The position numbers and the translations under genes were made by a program. This document shows, one piece after another, positions 1 through 10,099 of a stretch of DNA of 10,099 nt. The notes below the pieces were generated by a model. It ran no database searches, had not been told where the DNA came from, and saw nothing but the letters and a program-made list of their open reading frames with translations. Position 1 is the first letter of the stretch; the number at the start of each line of letters is the position of its first letter. The DNA is taken from positions 1 through 10,099 of the forward strand of contig CAMGAL010000049.1 of assembly GCA_946007445.1 (NCBI GenBank), written 5' to 3'. Source of the DNA: an uncultured Mediterranea sp. GTDB lineage: Bacteria > Bacteroidota > Bacteroidia > Bacteroidales > Bacteroidaceae.

Positions 1-1399
1 CGTCGTCGATGTGGCAGAAGGTGTGGATGATGAACCGCAGGGGCTGCTGGCCGGTGCGGCGATGGTAGGCGACGAGGGTTTCGGGGATGTGGGCGACCAG
101 CGCCTCGGGTCTCAGCTGGTCCAGCAGTTTGAAGTGGTCGAAGATGCCTTCGGGGGTGAGGTCGTAGCCTACGGAGAGGCTGCTCCGCTTGCCGTTGTCG
201 ATGCGGTGCGAGCAGATGGCCATCAGCACGTCGGTGGGCGGCATGGCGGGCTGGCTGATGGACCAGGGCTGTCCGCCCGTCTGGGTGATGACCTGCAGCA
301 CCAGGCTCATCTGCGTGTTGCACCAGTGGTTCTTGCGCAGCTGGCCTTTGTAGAGCAGGCTGACGGGGTGGCGGTTCATCAGCAGGAGCAGCACGGGTTT
401 GTACCTCTCCTTCTCCAGCAGCAGATACTCGTCCTTCCTGCAGTGGGGCACGAGGATGTAGTAGTGCTGCAGCGTCTCGTCGGGGCGCATGGAGGCTGTC
501 TGTTGCCTGAGCTTCTCAGTCAGATCTTCGGGCGAGGTGTAGCAGATGTCGTGAGCGGCGTTGTGGTGGAACCTCATGCCGCTGAAGTGCATCACCCAGC
601 CCATCCCATCCAATGCGTCGGAGAAGAGCTCCGAAATCCGGTGGTACATGCCTGTCTTTCCCATGGGCAGCAGCAGGTGCAGCTCGATGTCCTTCCGTGG
701 GGAGAACTGGTAGGCCTGGTGGGTCAGTATGCCGTGGCGGGCGTTGAGGGTCTTCTCTCCGTCGTGGAAGCAGAGTAGGGCGTAGTCGGTCGGGATGGAG
801 TAGAGTTCCTCCTCCGCGGGCTGGCGCCAGGTGCCTATCTTGGCAGGGCCCAGGCGGGTGCCTTCGGGCAGGTAGGTCTGCTGGAAGCGATGGATGAGCT
901 CGAAGTAGAATTTGTATCGAAGTTTGTTTTTTACCGGGTGGAAGTCGCCGGCGATTTCGGGAATCTGCTTGTAGCGATTTGTCGGAATGACCAGCCGCGC
1001 GTCCCTCGTATGGTTCTGCATCTCCTCGTAGCTCACTATCCGGTTGCCCTGGCACATCAGGTCTTTCTGTTTAGGGATGTAATCTTTCGGCCACTGCATC
1101 ACGTAGGCGTGTCCTTCAAACGATATTTGCAGTATCGGTATCGACGTGTGGTGGATGAGCGGTTTCAGTAATAGTTTACAGTAAGTTTTGTAATACCTTC
1201 CCCACCATCCCGGAGGTGCCTCTACCCACACTTCGACGGAGTTGCTGTGGGGACAGACCAGCAGCTTCGTATGCTGCTCCATGTGCGTCTGCAGCGCGGC
1301 GTGCAGCTTCTTGAGAATCTCTTTCGGGTTGTTTTCGCTCTCATCTGTACGGTGCAATACCAGTACGTTCTCCTGAAAAGAAACATACGCTTTTTTCAT
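1..1399 (-). CDS. Argonaute-like (MID-PIWI) protein, catalytically degenerate, C-terminus beyond window
   Basis: Reading from ATG at 1399 to the left edge gives 466 uninterrupted residues; the gene is cut there. Seen: residues about 205-245 (an 'LLCFHDGEK' strand, then 'GILTHQAYQF' and 'IELHLLLP') match the strand run that precedes MID in prokaryotic Argonautes. Residues 312-351 resemble MID, with Y333-K334 and 'HPVSLLYK' where families usually have 'xIPSQ'. Residues 361-381 have the PIWI entry signature N...L..I....GG.PW (G375, G376, P378, W379). The following 'TDVLMAICS' aligns with the usual 'ADVIIGIDV', so the first catalytic Asp is Cys396. 'FIIHTFC' at 456-462 aligns with 'viiyRDG', so the second Asp is Phe461. 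Residues 1-200 are unrecognised and could correspond to N/L1 or APAZ-like domains; no PAZ is evident. By family layout roughly 130-150 residues should be missing. Inference: guide-directed nucleic-acid binding without cleavage, probably defence or element control. Assignment is by eye only, with no profile search. Confidence 0.72.
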   Translation of the reverse strand, partial: MKKAYVSFQENVLVLHRTDESENNPKEILKKLHAALQTHMEQHTKLLVCPHSNSVEVWVEAPPGWWGRYYKTYCKLLLKPLIHHTSIPILQISFEGHAYVMQWPKDYIPKQKDLMCQGNRIVSYEEMQNHTRDARLVIPTNRYKQIPEIAGDFHPVKNKLRYKFYFELIHRFQQTYLPEGTRLGPAKIGTWRQPAEEELYSIPTDYALLCFHDGEKTLNARHGILTHQAYQFSPRKDIELHLLLPMGKTGMYHRISELFSDALDGMGWVMHFSGMRFHHNAAHDICYTSPEDLTEKLRQQTASMRPDETLQHYYILVPHCRKDEYLLLEKERYKPVLLLLMNRHPVSLLYKGQLRKNHWCNTQMSLVLQVITQTGGQPWSISQPAMPPTDVLMAICSHRIDNGKRSSLSVGYDLTPEGIFDHFKLLDQLRPEALVAHIPETLVAYHRRTGQQPLRFIIHTFCHIDD

Positions 1400-1426
1400 T
1401 TTTGTATAAAGTTTTAAGTTATAGCG

Positions 1427-1434
1427 CAAAGATA
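1427..1434 (-). promoter_or_regulatory. Bacteroidales -7 promoter element (TATCTTTG) of the Argonaute-like gene
   Basis: On the minus strand TATCTTTG matches the primary sigma consensus TAnnTTTG of Bacteroidales exactly. It lies 27 bases before the ATG at 1399, in AT-rich DNA. The -33 box is weak: the closest candidate is TTTA, 22 bases upstream. Transcription would start near 1420, giving a leader of about 20 bases without a Shine-Dalgarno motif, which is normal in this order. It indicates that the Argonaute-like gene is transcribed separately from the replication module upstream. Confidence 0.6.
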
Positions 1435-1507
1435 AGAGTTTTTCAGCAATAATACGTAAATAAGGCGTTAATTCCTGTATTTTAACATAATTTATACAGG
1501 GAACCAT

Positions 1508-1603
1508 AGAAAAGCCTCCCTACCAGCTCCTTACCAACTCCCTACCTGCTCCCTCCCTTAGGAGAGGAAGCGGGTAGGGCGAGGGTAGGGCCGGGAGGGA
1601 GGC
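1508..1603 (-). terminator. Long GC-rich imperfect palindrome built of 11-base units, followed by TTTTCT
   Basis: This lies six bases after the DUF3987 stop codon. The outer stem pairs 1514-1520 (GCCTCCC) with 1597-1603. A middle stem pairs 1540-1550 with 1569-1579 (11 bases, one mismatch that can form G-U in one strand). An inner stem pairs 1553-1556 with 1561-1564. The left arm is three tandem 11-base copies of TACCnnCTCCY (1521-1531, 1532-1542, 1543-1553). The right arm carries GGGTAGGG-type counterparts, also spaced 11. On the minus strand the last stem is followed at once by TTTTCT (1513-1508), so intrinsic termination of the replication operon is likely. It could also be a REP-like dispersed repeat. 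Confidence 0.6.
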
Positions 1604-1608
1604 AGGGG

Positions 1609-3357
1609 TCACAGCTTGCGGTAGTCGTTTTGGGCGTAGTGCAGCAGCTTCTTCTGCTCCACTAGCCGCTGTACGTAGCGCTCGGCGGTGCGCGGGTGGA
1701 TGCCTAAGGCCTCGGCCAGGCGCAGGTAGTCGGCGCGGTCGAACTGCGGCGGCAGTCGCTGCGCGAAGAGCTCGGCGGCGGTCTGCCCCGTGGCTTGGGG
1801 CGAGGTGTAGGCTCCCGTGGGGTCGTAGCTCACGAAGACGCGGCAGGTGTGGCGCAGCAGCAGGCGGGTGAGCAGCAGCACTCCGCGGAAGTCGTCGTCG
1901 CAGGGGGTGAGTGGTGCCGCCAGCGTGGTGCCCTCGTAGGGGGTGTCCATGAGGCGCAGCACGGTGCAGATGGCCATCATGCGGAAGGCACTCAGACCGG
2001 CCCGCTTGATGCAGGCGGCAAAGCCTTCGGCCTCCAGCCAGCTGTACTCTTGCAGCAGCTGGGCAAAGCAGTCGTTGAAGCGCCGGGCCTGCTCCTGGCT
2101 GAGCTGCACATCGACCTCCTGCTCCAGTAGCCAGCGGTAGAAGGGGGTGTAGCTCTGCCCCAGGCGGCGTGCCACGTCCTCGGGCACCTCGCCGCTGCCG
2201 GGCTGGGCAAAGACGTCGCGCCACTGCGTGGTGCCCTCCAGCAGGAAGTAGAGGAAGCGGGAGAAGAGACCGTTCTCGCGCTCGGGCGTCAGCTTCCTGA
2301 CCTGCCCGGGGGTGCCGCTCAGCATGACGCTGAGCAGCGGACGGGGGATGACGACGTACTCGTTGTCCGTGCGCCGCTTGTAGCTGCACTCCTCGTTGTG
2401 GTAGGCCTTGCGCAGCGTGGTGCTGTAGTCGCCGTGCTCGCTCTTGAAGGACTGGCTCACCTCGTCGCCCTCGCTCTCGAAGAGGAGGGCGCAGCCGTCG
2501 TTCTCGGCCAGCGTCTGCAGGATGGCGGTGGCGCTGCTGTTCGAGGGGATGCGCAGCAGCAGCTGGGGCGGCGTCTCGGGCATGGGGCCGCGCTCCTTCT
2601 TGGGCTTGGCCTCCCACTCGGCCATCTCCGCCCGATACTGCTCTCTGCGCTTTCGGCCCTCCTCGTAGCGCTCCTGCTGTATCTCCTCCACCAGCAGGTA
2701 GGCGTAGGCCATGATGCCCTTGCCCGAGGCGGCGGGTGCCACCACGAAGCCGTAGAGGTTGACGCCCACGCGCTTGCCGTCGTAGGTCAGCGTCAGCCGT
2801 CGCAGGGTGCTACTCAGACACACCAGGCCGCTGAAGAGCAGCAGCACCCTCTCCGAGAGGCTGCGGCCCAGCCCCTGCAGCCCCTGCAGCAAGGAGGCCC
2901 ACAGAAGGCTCACTATCTGCTCCATCAGCGCCCGGTCGGCCTCGTCCGTTTCGCCCACCGGTACGACAAGCGCGGGGGGTGTCGAAAGTGGCGAAAGTGG
3001 CAATGGCGTCGGTCCTGTCGGCAGTGTGGCCGGTGGCTGGATGAGGGGTCGGCTGGCGGGCTGCACGCTGATGCCTGCCTGCTGGGCCAGGTAGAAGAAG
3101 GTGCTGATGCTCACATCGCCCCGCCCCTGGCTCAGGCAGATGGAGTACTGTCGGTCGGGGTCGATGCTCTGAGGCCCGGGGTGCAGGCGGCTCAGCCGCA
3201 GGAAGGCTTCGCGTCCCTGCTCGCCGGCCTCCCCGGCCAGGGCGAACCCCATTTTCAGCCACTGGTCGTAGCTGGGTGCCAGGTCTATGCCGCTGGCTTC
3301 GGCTTGCTCCACCACTTGGCGGATTTCGTCTGATGTATCAAGCTTGTTCATCCTCAT
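1609..3357 (-). CDS. PriCT-2 / DUF3987 primase-associated helicase-like ATPase
   Basis: A 582-residue protein. Residues about 14-98 resemble the PriCT-2 domain ('SYDQWLKMGFAL' ... 'ISTFFYLAQQAGIS'), found C-terminal to or next to PrimPol primases. A Pro/Thr-rich linker (about 100-135) leads to the DUF3987 P-loop domain. Its Walker A is APAASGKG at 207-214, a Walker-B-like strand CALLFESEGDE lies at 289-299, and there is an Arg/Trp-rich segment near 367-381. A charged helical insertion spans about 225-258. The last 55 residues look like a winged helix (LAEALGIHPRTAERYVQRL). It overlaps the primase gene by 20 bases (14 if Met3 at 3351 is used), implying translational coupling. In Bacteroidales mobile elements this pair probably unwinds and primes element DNA for replication after transfer or excision. 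Family assignment is firm; the exact role is inferred. Confidence 0.85.
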   Translation of the reverse strand: MRMNKLDTSDEIRQVVEQAEASGIDLAPSYDQWLKMGFALAGEAGEQGREAFLRLSRLHPGPQSIDPDRQYSICLSQGRGDVSISTFFYLAQQAGISVQPASRPLIQPPATLPTGPTPLPLSPLSTPPALVVPVGETDEADRALMEQIVSLLWASLLQGLQGLGRSLSERVLLLFSGLVCLSSTLRRLTLTYDGKRVGVNLYGFVVAPAASGKGIMAYAYLLVEEIQQERYEEGRKRREQYRAEMAEWEAKPKKERGPMPETPPQLLLRIPSNSSATAILQTLAENDGCALLFESEGDEVSQSFKSEHGDYSTTLRKAYHNEECSYKRRTDNEYVVIPRPLLSVMLSGTPGQVRKLTPERENGLFSRFLYFLLEGTTQWRDVFAQPGSGEVPEDVARRLGQSYTPFYRWLLEQEVDVQLSQEQARRFNDCFAQLLQEYSWLEAEGFAACIKRAGLSAFRMMAICTVLRLMDTPYEGTTLAAPLTPCDDDFRGVLLLTRLLLRHTCRVFVSYDPTGAYTSPQATGQTAAELFAQRLPPQFDRADYLRLAEALGIHPRTAERYVQRLVEQKKLLHYAQNDYRKL

Positions 3358-4084
3358 TCAGTATGTTATGGTTTAACTTTTGTTGTACTGACTCTTGCTG
3401 GCTCTCGATGCGAAAGAGCACCGCGTCGGGGTCGTGGGGCAGGAAGCAGCAGCGGGCCACGTTCCTGCCTGAGGCATCCACCTGCACGCCGTAGGTCAGC
3501 AGCATGTAGTGGCTCAGCGCCTCAAACCACTCGGCGTGGCTGCCGAGGCTCAGGTCGATGGCCACCACCACCTTCAGTCCGTCGCCGCTGGGGCTGCGAA
3601 ACAGCAGCCTCAGGGCCAGCTCCTCGTCCGTCAGCAGGGCGTATCGCAGGCCCTCCACGCCGGCCATCTGTGCCACGGGCAGGTCGGGCCGACGGGCGGC
3701 GAAGAGGGTGCCTCCGGCCTGCCACCGGTGGATGTGGTCGATGTCCATCGTCAGCAGTCCGCTGTGCTCCAGCAGTCCCTCGTCCTTGCGTCCGTCGAAG
3801 CGTCCGCTCATGGTGGCGCTGCCGAAGAGCTGCCCCTTCCTGCGGCGCACATGGCTCATGGCCTGCTTACAGTCCGGGTCGGCCTGTGCCAGCAGCTGCC
3901 GGTACTGCTGCGTGGCCTCCTGCCAGCGCGGGCCGGTGATGCCCCGCCACAGCTGCCAGAGGCTCGCGGTGCCGCAGGGCTGGGTCTGGGTGATGGGTGG
4001 CTGGTAGATGCTGATGCAGCGTCGGGTGGCCTGCAGCCACTCGCTCTCGGAGAGCCACAGCGGTCGGGTCAGATGCGCTGTCAT
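3338..4084 (-). CDS. PrimPol-like primase, BT4734/BF3469 (VirE N-terminal) family
   Basis: A 248-residue protein with the three signatures of an archaeo-eukaryotic-primase/PrimPol fold: the metal-binding hDhD motif 'LLTMDIDHI' (D114, D116), the nucleotide-binding strand 'FRSPSGDGLKVVVAID' (about 162-177), and the third acidic/polar motif around D203 with 'SGRNVARCCFLPHDPD' (205-220). The VirE-N/BT4734 family is common in Bacteroidales integrative elements directly before DUF3987 genes, as here. Expected activity is primer or short DNA synthesis on single-stranded element DNA. The helicase and PriCT part is a separate downstream polypeptide. The ATG overlaps the stop of the HTH gene by four bases (ATGA at 4084-4081), so the two are translationally coupled. 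About the last 25 residues are polar and look like a flexible linker to its partner. Confidence 0.85.
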   Translation of the reverse strand: MTAHLTRPLWLSESEWLQATRRCISIYQPPITQTQPCGTASLWQLWRGITGPRWQEATQQYRQLLAQADPDCKQAMSHVRRRKGQLFGSATMSGRFDGRKDEGLLEHSGLLTMDIDHIHRWQAGGTLFAARRPDLPVAQMAGVEGLRYALLTDEELALRLLFRSPSGDGLKVVVAIDLSLGSHAEWFEALSHYMLLTYGVQVDASGRNVARCCFLPHDPDAVLFRIESQQESVQQKLNHNILNEDEQA

Positions 4085-4395
4085 ACGCGTTCCTCCTTTC
4101 CGTGTGCCTTGAGTTTGAACATCACGTAGCGGTTGCGCAGCACCTGGTCGATGTCTTCGCGCCGGTAGTAGATTTTGCCTCCCAGCTTGGTGAAGGCCAG
4201 GGTGCCGTTGCTGCGCAGGGTCTGCAGCATCCGAGGCGAGATGTGCAGCAGCTGCATCACGTCGGTATTGTCCAGCAGTTGGCCTACGAACGCCTTACTC
4301 TCCTTGCTCTGCCCCACGCTCGGCAGGCAGAGTCGGTGAAGCTCCTTGACGAGCCTCTCCATTTCCAGCAGTCGCCGGATAGTTTTTGTTTTCAT
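4081..4395 (-). CDS. Excisionase-like helix-turn-helix DNA-binding protein
   Basis: A 104-residue basic protein. Residues about 1-30 form a charged helix. Residues 40-92 fit the MerR/excisionase-type HTH_17 fold: 'DVMQLLHISPRMLQTLRSNG' (helix-turn-helix) followed by the wing 'LGGKIYYRREDIDQVL'. Such proteins open the HTH-PrimPol-DUF3987 modules of Bacteroidales mobile elements, acting as excision factors or operon regulators. I chose ATG 4395 because family members usually begin in this Lys/Arg-rich helix. The in-frame ATG at 4437 would add a Ser/Pro-rich 14-residue tail that looks non-conserved. The repeats in the 450 bases upstream are natural candidates for its binding sites, but this is inference. 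Confidence 0.82.
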   Translation of the reverse strand: MKTKTIRRLLEMERLVKELHRLCLPSVGQSKESKAFVGQLLDNTDVMQLLHISPRMLQTLRSNGTLAFTKLGGKIYYRREDIDQVLRNRYVMFKLKAHGKEERV

Positions 4396-4458
4396 TGTTT
4401 GGTTGTCGGGATGTGGTGATAGACTGCCGCGGCCCATCCGTCTGAAAACAGTAGCAGC

Positions 4459-4843: not shown

Positions 4844-6292
4844 TTACTTAAGCAGCCGTTTCACCGCCTGATACAGCCCCGAATGCGTATGCTTGATATT
4901 TGTCAGCGTATTATCTAGGTTCTGTGCTAAATTCCTCGAAATACTATCTACACTTGCCTGGTAATCGAACGTATTGACGATAAAATTCGCCCATTGAGTC
5001 TGAGTTATTCTCTTTCGTGGATCAATCAGGTAGATGAAATAGAAAACATGTTTGGTCAGCTGTTTGCTTCCCACCCTGATGCGAGGCGTAAGGGGGTTCT
5101 GCTCAAAGTGGTTGAGCATCCCATGTACGGCCTGATGAAGTCGGTTATACTCATTCGTAGAGAGATCCAGCAGGCTAAGTGCTTGGTCGACCAGCATAAA
5201 GTCATTGGTGCTCATATCCTCACGTCGGTGCACAAGGGGCTTTTTGTCCTGTTTGGGCAAGTAGCTGGTGGAGTGATGCTCGAAGTATTGTAATTCGGTC
5301 TGCAGGAATAAGGTCATACGGTGAGGCAGGCTCTCTGCAATCGGCTGTGGAAAGTCTCTCTGTATAGAGCCTTGCAGTTCACGCAGGCGACGTAGCCACT
5401 CGATGCCTGTCTGCATGTTATCATACTCCTCCAGCAGCTCCTCGCGATGCTCGTCTTCCCACTCCCTGACGGCCTCGTCGTCGTCGGCAGGCACGTGGTG
5501 TGCCCCGTGGGTATGCAGGTAGATGGCGTTGGCCATCCACTGTGCGAGTTTCGCCACATAGGCAGGCTGGCGATGCTGCGGAAAGTGGTTATTCTGCGTA
5601 AACTGGTGGCAGAGGTTCACCATCTCTTGGAGCAGGGCCTTGGCCTTTCTGACGGGGAACTGCTCGCTTCGCATGGCCAGCATCCGCTCGCTACGCGTGC
5701 AGAGGCGCATCAGGCGGTAGAGGGCCGAGGCTTCGGCGGGCAGCGCGAAAGACTGGTCGTGGGCCACGAAGCGCCTCAGGTCGTTGATGTCCCGCTCCTG
5801 CAGGAAGGCTTGTATGCAGAGGCCGATGTTCTCCAGGCTGTGTTGCAGAGGCTGGCTCAGTCGATTCATGTCCCTCAGCAGGTCTGCTATTCGGCGGCAT
5901 TCGCCATACCACTCCTGGCTATCCCACATCCGTTTCATATCCTCCCTCCTGAAGCTGTCTGCTTGAAGCAGGCGCAGCATGGTCCACTTGTAGTCCAGCC
6001 GCATGAGGGCCGTCAGCCGGTGGCTCTCGGTATCGGTCGTCACCTCCAGGGGCATCCAGCCGGCAAACAGCAGTCTGCCTGGTAAGCAGGGTGCGGTATA
6101 GTCAGGCGGCGTGCTGAATAGAGCGTACGGCGTGTAGTCATCTGGCGGGGCGACCGACAGCCCCCACAACTCCTCGATGCGATGGCTCAGCTCGTCGCAG
6201 TCGTCGATAGACATCAGTCTCCTTATGTCCCAGGTATTGAACAGGTATTCGTCGTACAAGGCCTTGCCCGTCAGTAGCATTATCTCTTCCAT
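4844..6292 (-). CDS. Protein of unknown function with weakly RteC-like C-terminus
   Basis: A 482-residue, mostly helical, soluble protein with no signal peptide or membrane segment. I do not recognise residues 1-400. They contain aromatic and acidic patches, including 'HVPADDDEAVREWEDEHREELLEEYD' around 267-291, which may form a charged coil. Residues 405-482 ('GSKQLTKHVFYFIYLI' ... 'ITQTQWANFIVNTF' ... 'SISRNLAQNLDN') resemble in layout the C-terminal half of RteC, the excision/mobilization regulator of Bacteroides conjugative transposons, but identity looks low. The ATG at 6292 lacks a ribosome site; Met5 at 6280 is preceded by GGAAGAG and could be the true start. It has its own promoter and is separated from the HTH operon by the repeat-rich region. 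Role in element regulation is inferred from position only. Confidence 0.7.
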   Translation of the reverse strand: MEEIMLLTGKALYDEYLFNTWDIRRLMSIDDCDELSHRIEELWGLSVAPPDDYTPYALFSTPPDYTAPCLPGRLLFAGWMPLEVTTDTESHRLTALMRLDYKWTMLRLLQADSFRREDMKRMWDSQEWYGECRRIADLLRDMNRLSQPLQHSLENIGLCIQAFLQERDINDLRRFVAHDQSFALPAEASALYRLMRLCTRSERMLAMRSEQFPVRKAKALLQEMVNLCHQFTQNNHFPQHRQPAYVAKLAQWMANAIYLHTHGAHHVPADDDEAVREWEDEHREELLEEYDNMQTGIEWLRRLRELQGSIQRDFPQPIAESLPHRMTLFLQTELQYFEHHSTSYLPKQDKKPLVHRREDMSTNDFMLVDQALSLLDLSTNEYNRLHQAVHGMLNHFEQNPLTPRIRVGSKQLTKHVFYFIYLIDPRKRITQTQWANFIVNTFDYQASVDSISRNLAQNLDNTLTNIKHTHSGLYQAVKRLLK

Positions 6293-6551: not shown

Positions 6552-8402
6552 CTACTCCAACATGATAACCTCCCCCTCCTCACCGATGAGCAGCAGGGTG
6601 AGGTGGCCTGTGGGGTAGAGGGGGCGGCAGTGGTCGTAGCAGGCCTGCAGCAGCCGGAGGGCAAAGGAGTGCATCTGGGCGGCCGGGAGCAGCTGCCACA
6701 GTTCGCGGGCCAGGGTGAGGCGGCTGATGGACTGCAGTTGCGCAGGCGTGCAGAGGCCGGAGGCTAGCCGGCAGATGAAGTCGGTGTTCATGGTCACCTC
6801 GCGGCTGTGGGTGTCGAGGTGTCCCTCGGCCAGCTTGACGGCTTTGCCTATCATCACGCCCAGGGTGATGGCCGGCAGGCGGAGCTGGTGGGCGGCTTGC
6901 AAAGAGTCACCAATATAGTTGCCATAGTGTACGAATGCCTGTATGGGGAGTTCGGGATAGAGTCTGCGCAGGAATTTTTCGCTCTTGGCGCCGGAATTGA
7001 GCACAATGCGCTCGGCTCCCGTAGCGCGTGCCACCTCTAAGGATTTGCGGATGGAGTCGACAAAGGCGCGCGCGGAGAAGGGCTTGATGATGCCCGAGGT
7101 GCCGATGATGGAGATGCCGCCCTCGATGCCCAGACGGGGATTGAAGGTGCGGGGGGCCAGGGCTTCGCCGTCGGGGACGGAGATGGTCGCTACCCATTCT
7201 GCCCGGTGGGGCGGGATGTGGCGACGTCGCAGCAGCAGGCTCAGGTTGTGTATCATCATCGCGCGGGGAGTCTGGTTGATGGCCGCTTCGCCTACAGGCA
7301 GTCCCAGCCCGGGTAGTGTCACCCTGCCCACACCTTCGCCTCCTTCTATCCGGATGCGGTAGTCCTCCGTGTCCCATGACTCTGCAGCTGCGAGGGGGAG
7401 CAGCTCTACCTGCGCACAGATGCGCCGCCCCTGGGTGATGTCGGGGTCGTCGCCACTCTCTTTGACGACGCTTGCCTGGCCTATCGCATCGGACGATGCC
7501 CGGACGGGGATGGTTTCGCCGTTGGGCAGGCAGACCGGCACCTCGCGTGTGGCGTGGTCGGTGGCGCCCTCTATCAGGGTCTCTGCAGCCAGCAGCAGTG
7601 CAGCCGTGGCACAGGTGCCCGTGGTCAGTCCGCTATGCAGGGGATAGAAGGAGGGGAGCCATTGCTCCACGGCTCGCCGCAGTCCGTGGGGCCCATCGAC
7701 CGTTGCGCAATATCCGTCGGGAAGGGGGGGGCGACAGATGGCGAAGATGCGTATGCCAGCCTGGCGGGCCGCTTCCACTTTGTCCATAAATCCGCCACTT
7801 GCGCCACTCTCTTTCAGCACGATGGCATCCGGCTGCCACTGCTCCAGCACGCTCTCTTCTCGCTCTCCTGTCCGGTAGTAGCAGATGCGCTCCAAGGGGA
7901 ACCCCTGACGCAGGGCCAACTGTCGCGAAGAGTCTCTATCCAGAATACGGAAATAGCATTCGATACTCCCTTTCTGCCAGATTTTGCGTAGCTTCCCGAT
8001 GGTCTGTACTCCGGTTAGAGCCAATAGTTTGGATGGATTTGCTCGAGTAATTTCTAATACGGCTTCCTCAAAGTCTCTGCACCAGCAGATGTCTGCGGAG
8101 CGTTCCGCATAGATGCGCTCCAGCCGGATGGCCGGAATGGCCAAATCGGCAGCTGCCTGCACGACGGTGAGGTGCAGCTGGGTGGCGAAGGGATGGGCGG
8201 CATCGACCAGCAGCTTTATCTCCTTTTGTCTGCAAAATTCTACGATGCCTGCTCGGTCTAAGGCCCCATGCAGGCGGGTGCCGTGGTGGAGGGTCACCTC
8301 CTGCTCGTCGCCGCGGGTGGAGTAGTAGTAGGGCGAGCCGGCCTCTTCGAGGGCCTCGATGGCCACACGCCCCTCGGTCGTGCCTCCAAAGAGCAGTATC
8401 AT
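6552..8402 (-). CDS. Fused precorrin-6A reductase (CbiJ/CobK) and cobalt-precorrin-5B C1-methyltransferase (CbiD)
   Basis: A 616-residue bifunctional enzyme of cytoplasmic cobalamin synthesis. Residues 1-250 are CbiJ/CobK: the Rossmann start 'MILLFGGTTEGR', 'LLVDAAHPFA' (64-73), 'LLALTGVQTIGKL' (126-138) and 'AIVLKESGASGG' (193-204); this half reduces (cobalt-)precorrin-6A with NAD(P)H. Residues about 255-616 are CbiD: 'HSGLTTGTCATAA' (256-268), 'GIEGGISIIGTSGIIKP', 'VHYGNYIGD' and 'MNTDF'; this half methylates C1 of cobalt-precorrin-5B with SAM. The length equals the sum of the two families. The two act one after the other, so fusion couples consecutive steps. The ATG at 8402 overlaps the upstream stop (ATGA); the longer in-frame extension to 9017 lies within the other gene and was dismissed. 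CbiD indicates the early-cobalt pathway. Confidence 0.92.
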   Translation of the reverse strand: MILLFGGTTEGRVAIEALEEAGSPYYYSTRGDEQEVTLHHGTRLHGALDRAGIVEFCRQKEIKLLVDAAHPFATQLHLTVVQAAADLAIPAIRLERIYAERSADICWCRDFEEAVLEITRANPSKLLALTGVQTIGKLRKIWQKGSIECYFRILDRDSSRQLALRQGFPLERICYYRTGEREESVLEQWQPDAIVLKESGASGGFMDKVEAARQAGIRIFAICRPPLPDGYCATVDGPHGLRRAVEQWLPSFYPLHSGLTTGTCATAALLLAAETLIEGATDHATREVPVCLPNGETIPVRASSDAIGQASVVKESGDDPDITQGRRICAQVELLPLAAAESWDTEDYRIRIEGGEGVGRVTLPGLGLPVGEAAINQTPRAMMIHNLSLLLRRRHIPPHRAEWVATISVPDGEALAPRTFNPRLGIEGGISIIGTSGIIKPFSARAFVDSIRKSLEVARATGAERIVLNSGAKSEKFLRRLYPELPIQAFVHYGNYIGDSLQAAHQLRLPAITLGVMIGKAVKLAEGHLDTHSREVTMNTDFICRLASGLCTPAQLQSISRLTLARELWQLLPAAQMHSFALRLLQACYDHCRPLYPTGHLTLLLIGEEGEVIMLE

Positions 8403-10099
8403 GGGCGGAAGAGGTGTTTGAACTCGTGGGCATAGAGGCGCGAGAGACCCTGGCGGTTGTCGATGGCCTCGCCTACGACAATCATGGTGGTCAGCGTCAG
8501 GTGGTTGTCCTTCACGATGCGGGCCAGATCCTGCAGTTCGCCGCGGTAGATGTGCTCGTCTTTCCAGGTGAGGTGGTGGCAGACGGCTACCGGCGTGGTG
8601 GGCGGATAGGCTTGCAGCAGTTCGGCCTGCACCTTGTCGGCAATGCCGGCGCTGAGGAAGATGCACATGGTGCTCTGCGAGCGGGCCAGCAGGTGGAGCT
8701 TCTCCTTCTCGGGCATGGGGGTGCGGCCTTCGCCCCGGGTGAGGATGATGCTCTGCACGCGCTCGGGGATGGTGAACTGCGAGCGCAGGGCGGCGGCTGC
8801 GGCCTGGAAGGAGGAGATGCCGGGCGTGATGTGATACTCCATGCCGTAGCGGTCGAAGTAGTTCATCTGCTCCTGGATGGCGCCGTAGATGCAGGGGTCG
8901 CCGGTGTGGAGGCGCACCACCAGCAGACCGCGGTCGTAGTACTCCTTCATCAGGGCAAACTGCTGCTCCAGGTCCATCGAGGCGGAGCTCTCCACCCTGC
9001 AGCCGGGCTTGGCGCAATGGGTCAGCTCGACGGGCACCAGACTGCCGGCATAGAGGATGAGGTCGGCCCGCTGCAGGAACTGGCGGCCGCGCACGGAGAT
9101 GAGGTCGGGGTCGCCGGGGCCGGCACCGACTATCTCGATGTGGCCGCGGCGCAGCTGGCCGGTGGCGATGGCCACGGCCACGGTGTAGTTGCTCCCTTTC
9201 TGCTTGGGCAGTATCAGGGTGCCCTCGGCCAGGGAGTCGCTGGTGGCCAGTATGGCGGCTGCCTCGCTGACGCTGGGCGTGCCTACATGGCCCTGCACCA
9301 CCTCGCTGGGGGTGGGCACGGCAACAGCGGCCAGGGCTTCGGCGGTGAAGAGGCTGACGGGGAGTCCTTCGGCCTGCAGGGCTTGCAGCACCGGCTCGTC
9401 CTGCTTGAGGTCGATGGTGGCCAGGCGGCTGATGCTCTGCCAGGCAATGCCGTGCTGCTGCAGGCAGGCCTTCACCTCGCTGACTACCTGCTCCACCGGT
9501 TGGGCCTGATGGGCCAGCCCTAACCCTAAGCAGAGCGTGCGGGGCTGGTAGGCGAGGAGCTGCACATCGGCAGGCAGTGCCGATGCGTCGGGCAGGAGGG
9601 GCGACACGGCGATGATGAGCTTGTAGGTCGTGGTGTCGATGGTGTCGAAACTGCGGAAAGTGCGTACGAAGGGGGGCAAGTGGCTCTCCATCCAGTCGGT
9701 GCCGGCATCGCGAATCTGGAGCAGCAAGGCGGTGGGCCGGCCGGCGGTGAAGTGGCTGATGGCGGCATTGAGCGAGCCGGAGGCCACGGTGTGCCAGCCG
9801 AAGCGACGGCCCAGCGTGTCGAGTGCCCAGAGGCCGGCCAGGTCGCTGTAGGTGGTGATGACGGGCTGTGCGCCCAGCAAACGGGCCACCTGGAGGGTCA
9901 GCTCGTTGGCGCCGCCCACGTGGCCGGAGAGGACGGAGATGGCCTGGCTGCCTAGGCTGTCGATGCAGAGCACGGCGGGGTCGGTGTGCTTGTCGGCAAT
10001 GTAGGGGGCTATGGTGCGCACACAGATGCCCATGGCTCCCACGAAGAGGAGGGCCCGGCGGTGGGGGAAGACCTCGGCGGGGGAGCGGGGGAGGGGGGC
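8399..10099 (-). CDS. Fused cobalt-precorrin-5A hydrolase (CbiG) and precorrin-4 C11-methyltransferase (CobM/CbiF), N-terminus beyond window
   Basis: 566 residues are visible; the frame is open through the right edge. GTG 10042 is not the true start, because 'ALLFVGAMGICVRTIAP' is an internal CbiG motif, so perhaps 50-70 residues are missing. Visible residues up to about 320 are CbiG: 'VLSGHVGGANELT', then the CobE-like C-terminal part 'CLGLGLAHQAQPVEQV', 'PSEVVQGHVGTPSVSEAA' and 'LPKQKGSNYTVAVA'. From about residue 321 comes CobM/CbiF, a SAM-dependent tetrapyrrole methylase: 'IEIVGAGPGDPDLISVRG', 'LILYAGSLVP', 'RLHTGDPCIYGA', 'ITPGISSFQAAAA' and a C-terminal 'TLTTMIVVGEA'. CobM methylates C11 of (cobalt-)precorrin-4 and CbiG opens and deacylates the product, so the fusion joins successive steps. 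More pathway genes are expected to the right. Confidence 0.93.
   Translation of the reverse strand, partial: APLPRSPAEVFPHRRALLFVGAMGICVRTIAPYIADKHTDPAVLCIDSLGSQAISVLSGHVGGANELTLQVARLLGAQPVITTYSDLAGLWALDTLGRRFGWHTVASGSLNAAISHFTAGRPTALLLQIRDAGTDWMESHLPPFVRTFRSFDTIDTTTYKLIIAVSPLLPDASALPADVQLLAYQPRTLCLGLGLAHQAQPVEQVVSEVKACLQQHGIAWQSISRLATIDLKQDEPVLQALQAEGLPVSLFTAEALAAVAVPTPSEVVQGHVGTPSVSEAAAILATSDSLAEGTLILPKQKGSNYTVAVAIATGQLRRGHIEIVGAGPGDPDLISVRGRQFLQRADLILYAGSLVPVELTHCAKPGCRVESSASMDLEQQFALMKEYYDRGLLVVRLHTGDPCIYGAIQEQMNYFDRYGMEYHITPGISSFQAAAAALRSQFTIPERVQSIILTRGEGRTPMPEKEKLHLLARSQSTMCIFLSAGIADKVQAELLQAYPPTTPVAVCHHLTWKDEHIYRGELQDLARIVKDNHLTLTTMIVVGEAIDNRQGLSRLYAHEFKHLFRP

Follow-up and report, generated by a model that had tools for sequence, protein, structure and literature searches.

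A degenerate Argonaute with a predicted loss of its guide pocket in a recurring PrimPol-helicase cassette of Bacteroides, and a triple-GCA promoter element before DUF6266 genes

We analyzed a stretch of DNA of 10,099 nucleotides from an uncultured Mediterranea sp. (the window), which constitutes the entire contig C49 (C49:1-10099) of genome G000 (2.43 Mb, 394 contigs, 73% complete), focusing on a gene for a degenerate, PAZ-less, long-B-like prokaryotic Argonaute (pAgo) and on the cassette that carries it. On the minus strand, genes for a small HTH_17 DNA-binding protein (4081..4437; Pfam PF12728, E=2.7e-11), a BT4734-like (VirE_N) PrimPol (3338..4084; PF08800, presumably the family formerly named VirE_N, E=3.8e-14), a 582-amino-acid putative helicase with PriCT_2 and DUF3987 (1609..3357; PF13148, E=1.2e-51; PF08707, E=1.9e-08) and the pAgo (1..1399) follow one another in this order, and the first three overlap. 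The PrimPol keeps the metal motif DID and belongs to the BT4734-like archaeo-eukaryotic PrimPols, with the motif D-[IF]-D present in all eight aligned rows; its match to NCBIfam PrimPol_Db (E=1.5e-09, 37.6 bits) lies below the cut-off of 200. A Walker-A-like APAASGKG was noted by eye in the DUF3987 protein. An 11-bp tandem array, CTCCCTACCAG, lies at 1516-1554 in 3.5 copies, within the spacer (1400..1608) that separates the DUF3987 gene from the pAgo start.

The pAgo frame is open from 1507 to the contig end at position 2 (502 amino acids translated), with a candidate ATG at 1399 (MKK...) from which the N-terminal 466 of about 625 residues are encoded. Because this edge belongs to the assembly and is not a biological end, the end of the gene is missing. 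We searched the same genome with P0002, a complete relative of 625 amino acids that is 97% identical to the window pAgo, and located its residues 508-625 at C197:4311-4664, with about 41 residues between C49 and C197 unassembled. Since the missing C-terminus sits there, C197 was taken as the probable left continuation of C49.

A preliminary description, made from the window alone, had called the protein Argonaute-like, and this was borne out by PADLOC pAgo matches of the fragment (E=7.2e-29) and of P0002 (E=1.1e-47). Pfam gave no family for the fragment and chance-level families only for P0002 and P0003; NCBIfam likewise failed to recognize the window type, and a PDB search with the single pAgo sequence yielded one chance-level SusD match (E=0.054). 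A profile search of proteins (A3) returned P0002 and P0003, both complete and at 65% identity, as the sole relatives; of two contig scans across genomes, the first had no match and the second found four loci. Of 393 genomes in the order, 33 had a match to profile PDLC02385 (E<=1e-15), and a canonical member from the same genus, G055 (P0004, Bacteroidaceae bacterium HV4-6-C5C), scored 669 bits and has a Piwi domain. The top profile matches of the window family were the entries of AfAgo, EcAgo and RsAgo, which are long-B pAgos according to the available text of PMC10954474 and PMC10620215. These results indicate that the gene is a genuine Argonaute, with a MID-PIWI fold and profile match, and its sequence features are those of a PAZ-less, single-chain protein, probably of the long-B type. 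The GG-x-PW noted earlier at 375-379 was confirmed; the absence of PAZ, the non-cutting nature, the length of about 600 residues (625 in P0002) and the accessory setting were supported. Some 200 extra N-terminal residues had been remarked on as a departure from the short-pAgo plan and are not unusual in themselves; they are covered by PADLOC's 674-position pAgo model, and single-chain, PAZ-reduced long-B pAgos are already described in the accessible part of PMC10954474. The protein also differs from short pAgos (SPARTA, SPARSA, SPARDA) in having its N-terminal domains in the same chain, and no adjacent APAZ effector partner was recognized. In a tree that sampled the PDLC02385-type family only, the window type and the oleiciplenus type were joined at 98/96, with a long-branch warning, and G055 was placed apart.

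Cys396 and Phe461 (numbered from MKK) align, as proposed, with the columns that we take to be those of the first two catalytic Asp residues; the catalytic mapping comprised these two columns, with the Glu finger and the last tetrad position outside it. The same columns hold G and Y in all 112 canonical relatives, so that the sampled canonical family is also non-cutting. The catalytic site is almost certainly dead. For the guide pocket, we aligned ten cassette rows with 112 canonical proteins longer than 600 amino acids (from 118, P0006-P0123) and took the positions from AfAgo Y123, K127, Q137 and K163 (numbers counted on the alignment), which we assume to be pocket residues. All 112 canonical relatives carry the pocket letters Y, K, Q, N and K, and G055 likewise has all five. 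P0002 has Y333, L337, S347, S365 and Q373, with identical letters in P0003, so one of five is kept; none is kept in five oleiciplenus-group rows (S, R, G, S, Q), in G623 (V, R, G, T, R) or in G676 (G, R, E, D, S). In some degenerate-type rows, Arg replaces the pocket Lys. The pocket Gln is thus absent, as the preliminary description had it, but the aligned residue is Ser347, one column from the Leu348 that it named. A C-terminal LWFL or LWIL tail ends 107 of the 112 canonical proteins and none of the eight degenerate rows that are full-length (G676 contributes an N-terminal piece). The terminal carboxylate helps form the pocket. A role of the pocket residues is described for RsAgo in the available text of PMC6299218. 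Since the window type retains a single one of the five canonical 5'-phosphate pocket positions and lacks the conserved C-terminal tail, the earlier label "guide-using" is weakened. Judging from the alignment, the canonical 5'-phosphate pocket is very probably absent from degenerate-type pAgos, which makes a canonical 5'-phosphorylated guide unlikely; other nucleic-acid binding would still be possible.

To judge constraint, we calculated ratios of nonsynonymous to synonymous substitution rates (dN/dS) for five genomes of one clade (G665, G640, G698, G729 and G626), with the window lineage lying outside this set. The pAgo gave 0.22-0.34 in 10/10 pairs, DUF6266 0-0.14, DUF3987 0.09-0.15, PrimPol 0.06-0.24 and an open reading frame (ORF) of about 500 amino acids 0.19-0.37 (six pairs). 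Open pAgo frames of 623-653 amino acids were found in seven degenerate-type carriers, namely these five genomes, G623 and G690. G665, G698, G729 and Bacteroides rodentium have left-hand neighbours in common and were therefore counted as one lineage. In this one clade, the pAgo is under purifying selection and not in free decay, and is constrained, though no more than its least constrained neighbour.

Downstream of the pAgo, C197 carries a DUF6266 gene and then a convergent zeta-toxin-like kinase gene (L005 2636-3244, plus strand; PF06414, E=4.4e-12). An effector had been expected on this side; the genes found there are DUF6266, with its own promoter motif, and the kinase, and no TIR, SIR2 or nuclease partner adjoining the pAgo was identified by domain search with Pfam and PADLOC. 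The same gene order with DUF6266 and an amidase was observed in G626, G640, G665, G698 and G729, in some of them with a gene inserted before the pAgo; the amidase domain was assigned by Pfam in G626 and by similarity to G626 in the others. In G623, a transposase-like gene (by eye) precedes the pAgo and an HTH-M78 gene follows it; in B. rodentium, a 557-amino-acid gene takes the place of DUF6266; in G639, the cassette halves lie on separate contigs; and the loci of G676, G688 and G690 reach contig ends. Outside the genus, G365 has HTH_17-HTH_17-BT4734-DUF3987 upstream of a canonical pAgo. The G055 stretch that was read has an HTH gene and a HipA-like gene (by eye) instead of PrimPol and DUF3987. 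A cassette of the order (~500-amino-acid ORF)-HTH_17-PrimPol-PriCT_2/DUF3987-pAgo-operator/promoter-DUF6266, often with the amidase, thus recurs with little doubt.

The DUF3987 gene by itself is common, with 74 matches in 32 of 60 sampled genomes of the genus, four of them beside a pAgo. Four fetched pAgo-free loci (L143-L146) have the order PrimPol-DUF3987-HU-like-amidase, which suggests that pAgo and DUF6266 occupy the place of the HU-like gene; for the HU-like protein of L143, the NCBIfam score was 62.6 bits, slightly short of the 68.6-bit cut-off. A tree was built of 37 DUF3987 proteins, in which the copies of G639 and G365 group at 99/95 with seven pAgo-linked copies of the genus. DUF6266 was considered as a dedicated pAgo effector but not adopted as one: a pAgo is nearby in 5 of the 28 DUF6266 matches sampled (adjacent in four, beyond an insertion in G623).

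Downstream of the pAgo lies a promoter-linked element, GCA-N7-GCA-N7-GCA-N38-TAnnTTTG, whose GCA boxes at 10-bp steps were first noticed by eye in aligned pAgo-DUF6266 spacers. TAnnTTTG, which we take to be the Bacteroides-type promoter motif, occurs within 260 bp in 24 of 29 DUF6266 upstream stretches. The triple GCA is present in 11 of the 29, each time exactly 61 bp before TAnnTTTG (11/11); in mononucleotide shuffles, 0.005 stretches with the triple were expected. Scanning 157 genomes of the genus with the joint pattern, which itself imposes the spacing between boxes and TAnnTTTG, gave 28 sites in 12 genomes, all pAgo carriers, and the reversed pattern gave none. A pAgo profile including degenerate members matched 13 of the 157 genomes, namely these 12 and G690, where the promoter-proximal box alone is exact. 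This profile was built partly from the G668 and G688 pAgos found beside the element, so that the searches are not fully independent; an earlier pAgo search without these members found 10 of 158 genomes, all with the element. Fisher tests (4e-17 for element versus pAgo, 4e-9 for distant sites versus pAgo) treat related genomes as independent and were not relied on. Of the 28 sites, twelve are located behind a pAgo, a single one in each genome (with intervening genes in G623), and the next gene is DUF6266 in 10 of them, another gene in G668 and the contig end in G676. The other 16 sites, in seven genomes, lie away from the pAgo, and 13 precede a DUF6266 gene. Three distant sites of G000 (L162, L170 and L176; C29, C110 and C124) have no recognizable DUF6266 downstream; pairwise comparison of these copies shows 100-190 bp of common sequence (73-76% identity), most of it upstream of the element. 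The element is in all likelihood a real, promoter-linked operator.

In the oleiciplenus group, the distant units occupy otherwise unrelated sites and match one another over a stretch that starts about 146 bp ahead of the element and takes in most of DUF6266; an inverted repeat, each arm about 16 bp long, forms the left border. One arm (at most one mismatch) was found in 8 of 156 genomes, including the pAgo-free G625 and G728. The inverted repeat GCACTTGCTCCGTACC/GGTACGGAGCAAGTGC is dispersed in the B. oleiciplenus group, with at most 10 pattern matches per genome (G665), at L154, L161, L163, L166, L167, L171-L174, L178 and L180.

We then considered which protein might bind the boxes. All 11 carriers of the genus with readable loci have the HTH_17 subfamily (in G639, on another contig), and so does G365, with G688 and G690 unreadable; weaker matches occurred in two order-level pAgo loci (L056 and L061), and the subfamily was not found in L143-L147. 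In G639, further GCA triples without the promoter motif surround the HTH_17 gene. According to the available part of PMC7498355, excisionase-type factors bind cooperatively to direct repeats spaced by one helical turn, and among them Apl is a regulator of promoters. Two features of such recombination directionality factors are present here, the HTH_17 domain and the 10-bp-spaced repeats. For this reason, the HTH_17 protein is the best candidate binder of the triple-GCA boxes, a prediction by analogy that may equally well hold or fail; the pAgo itself or the ~500-amino-acid ORF is a possible alternative.

Putting these observations together, we favour, with a probability of about 0.5, the reading that a catalytically dead pAgo without a guide pocket serves a mobile PrimPol-helicase cassette, and that DUF6266 promoters are under the control of the cassette's HTH_17 protein. 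The Argonaute would no longer work with a 5'-phosphorylated guide, and may be a subunit that binds nucleic acids or provides a scaffold within the primase-helicase module. The HTH_17 protein would bind the three GCA boxes in the manner of excisionase-type regulators and switch the DUF6266 promoter beside the cassette as well as those elsewhere. That a heavily worn pAgo has been retained next to a primase, a helicase and a distinctive promoter switch across several Bacteroides species suggests a function other than guided cutting. A guide-independent role of the pAgo is slightly less than an even bet when taken by itself. The fullest version, in which a guide-independent Argonaute handles nucleic acids as a subunit and the PrimPol-helicase cassette commands dispersed DUF6266 satellites through an excisionase-like HTH_17 protein and the three-box operator, is improbable when taken as a whole.

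Several observations weigh against the favoured reading. The structure alignment consisted mostly of canonical rows. The ~500-amino-acid ORF is as relaxed as the pAgo, with PrimPol, DUF3987 and DUF6266 tighter (0-0.24), and the dN/dS values speak for a single clade to which the window does not belong. Three of the 13 carriers have frames that appear broken: the G639 pAgo has two in-frame TAG codons, that of G676 has one, and that of G668/B. rodentium looks disturbed. The pAgo-side copy of the element is inherited by linkage, which is no proof of dependence, and the informative distant copies come from about two lineages. Two of the 16 distant sites (in G668, on other contigs) adjoin RHS-like or other genes resembling those behind the G640 and G698 cassettes, and are possibly part of the cassette's surroundings. 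G055 combines HTH_17, element and DUF6266 with an intact-pocket pAgo and no PrimPol/DUF3987, and pocket loss is therefore unnecessary for the element. The best DUF3987 tree placed the window copy, which has a long branch, among the HU-type copies, and a single clade with the other nine was not rejected (approximately unbiased test, p=0.078); the order-level pAgo-linked copies of G547 and G558 fell outside, and one clade including them was rejected (p=0.013).

Three other explanations were weighed against this reading. A dead pAgo with an unusual guide (for example, 5'-OH as in MpAgo) might trigger an effector in guided abortive infection, in the manner of BPAN, BPAS or BPAM, with DUF6266, the zeta-like kinase or the PrimPol-helicase in the effector's role. 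We consider this unlikely: no recognized nuclease, SIR2 or TIR domain was found in the pAgo operon, and the downstream gene is DUF6266, in which Pfam and PADLOC detect no nuclease or SIR2 domain (transmembrane prediction was no part of this search). DUF6266 moreover has its own promoter motif, with 23 of 28 sampled matches away from a pAgo, and the zeta-like gene is convergent and, of all the cassettes read, occurs beside that of the window's genome alone. The pAgo might also be a once-useful passenger that is degrading in a mobile cassette without a present function. The loss of the catalytic and most pocket residues, the broken-looking frames and a B. rodentium pAgo without adjacent DUF6266 would fit such decay, which is nevertheless somewhat less probable still, given the seven carriers with open frames, the low dN/dS in every pair and the completeness of both P0002 and P0003 at 65% identity.

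The least probable of the three sees the triple-GCA element as part of mobile DUF6266 units that need the cassette for movement or replication rather than for transcription. Such units are suggested by the extent of shared sequence at unrelated sites, by the inverted repeat at the left border, by the restriction of distant sites to pAgo carriers and by related primases that belong to mobile elements, as described in the accessible text of PMC5862659. The exact 61-bp spacing between boxes and TAnnTTTG in 11/11 DUF6266 upstream stretches points to transcription, however, and one inverted-repeat arm also occurs in the two pAgo-free genomes.

The association of pAgos with VirE_N proteins is already known. 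A subclade of long-B pAgos associates with VirE N-terminal proteins, with its function left open, in the available text of Song et al. 2023 (PMC10620215). The present locus resembles this subclade (og_54) in its dead pAgo and VirE_N gene, with a PF08800 gene in the window operon, and differs from the report, as far as its available text goes, in the pocket loss, the HTH_17/DUF3987/DUF6266/amidase cassette and the promoter element. AfAgo/AfAgo-N, split or PAZ-less long-B proteins described in the available text of PMC10954474, retain the Y/K/Q/K pocket in the alignment; a further difference is that the window pAgo is a single chain. The canonical family of about 690 amino acids (PDLC02385, e.g. 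G055/P0004) falls under the same profile and also lacks the two Asp residues, but its pocket and LWFL tail are intact and both are lost in the window type. Bacteroides BT4734-DUF3987-HU-like-amidase cassettes have the same PrimPol-helicase order and a related amidase, with an HU-like protein in place of pAgo-DUF6266 and no HTH_17 (4/4 fetched loci, L143-L146). The available text of PMC8211822 describes PrimPols of the VirE_N type from CRISPR loci and mobile elements of Bacteroidetes, and the window PrimPol gave a sub-threshold match to the model of this type. In the open-access literature (subscription journals lay outside this coverage), we found no paper on DUF6266, none on Argonaute with Bacteroides, VirE and primase, and none on a degenerate MID domain of a Bacteroides Argonaute. 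Three things seem to be new: that the pocket is lost along with the tail, that the cassette recurs, and the promoter element itself. Argonautes are known by guide binding, and a pocket-less lineage under selection would, if confirmed, show guide-free uses of the fold; through its short promoter element, the cassette also gives a handle on DUF6266 and on the functionally open VirE_N-associated pAgos.

At the upstream end of the window cassette, an ORF of 482 amino acids (4844..6292, minus strand) stands in the position of the ~500-amino-acid ORF of the sister cassettes; similarity between the two was not detectable, and the window ORF had no match in Pfam, PADLOC, PHROG or NCBIfam. Cobalamin genes adjoin the cassette (6552-10099, minus strand) as a CbiJ/CobK-CbiD frame and a CbiG-TP_methylase frame. 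Rfam gave 0 matches at gathering level in 55,953 bases. The repeat GGCGAAAGT was suspected to be a family-specific site, had six genome matches at no more than one mismatch and was set aside. Iteron-like iterated or inverted arrays with units of about 9-11 bp, differing by lineage, flank the pAgo on both sides (L005 4197-4281; window 1516-1554; L149 8686-8783). Elsewhere in the order, many canonical relatives (L037-L063) lie among recurring gene families of about 1000, 500 and 420 amino acids, which we take to resemble type I restriction-modification sets. Two divergent pAgo subfamilies (L055-L058 and L059-L061; 620-649 and 759-763 amino acids) each have their own adjacent family, of 347-358 amino acids beside the 620-649-amino-acid pAgos and of 291-298 beside those of 759-763, which may be dedicated partners.
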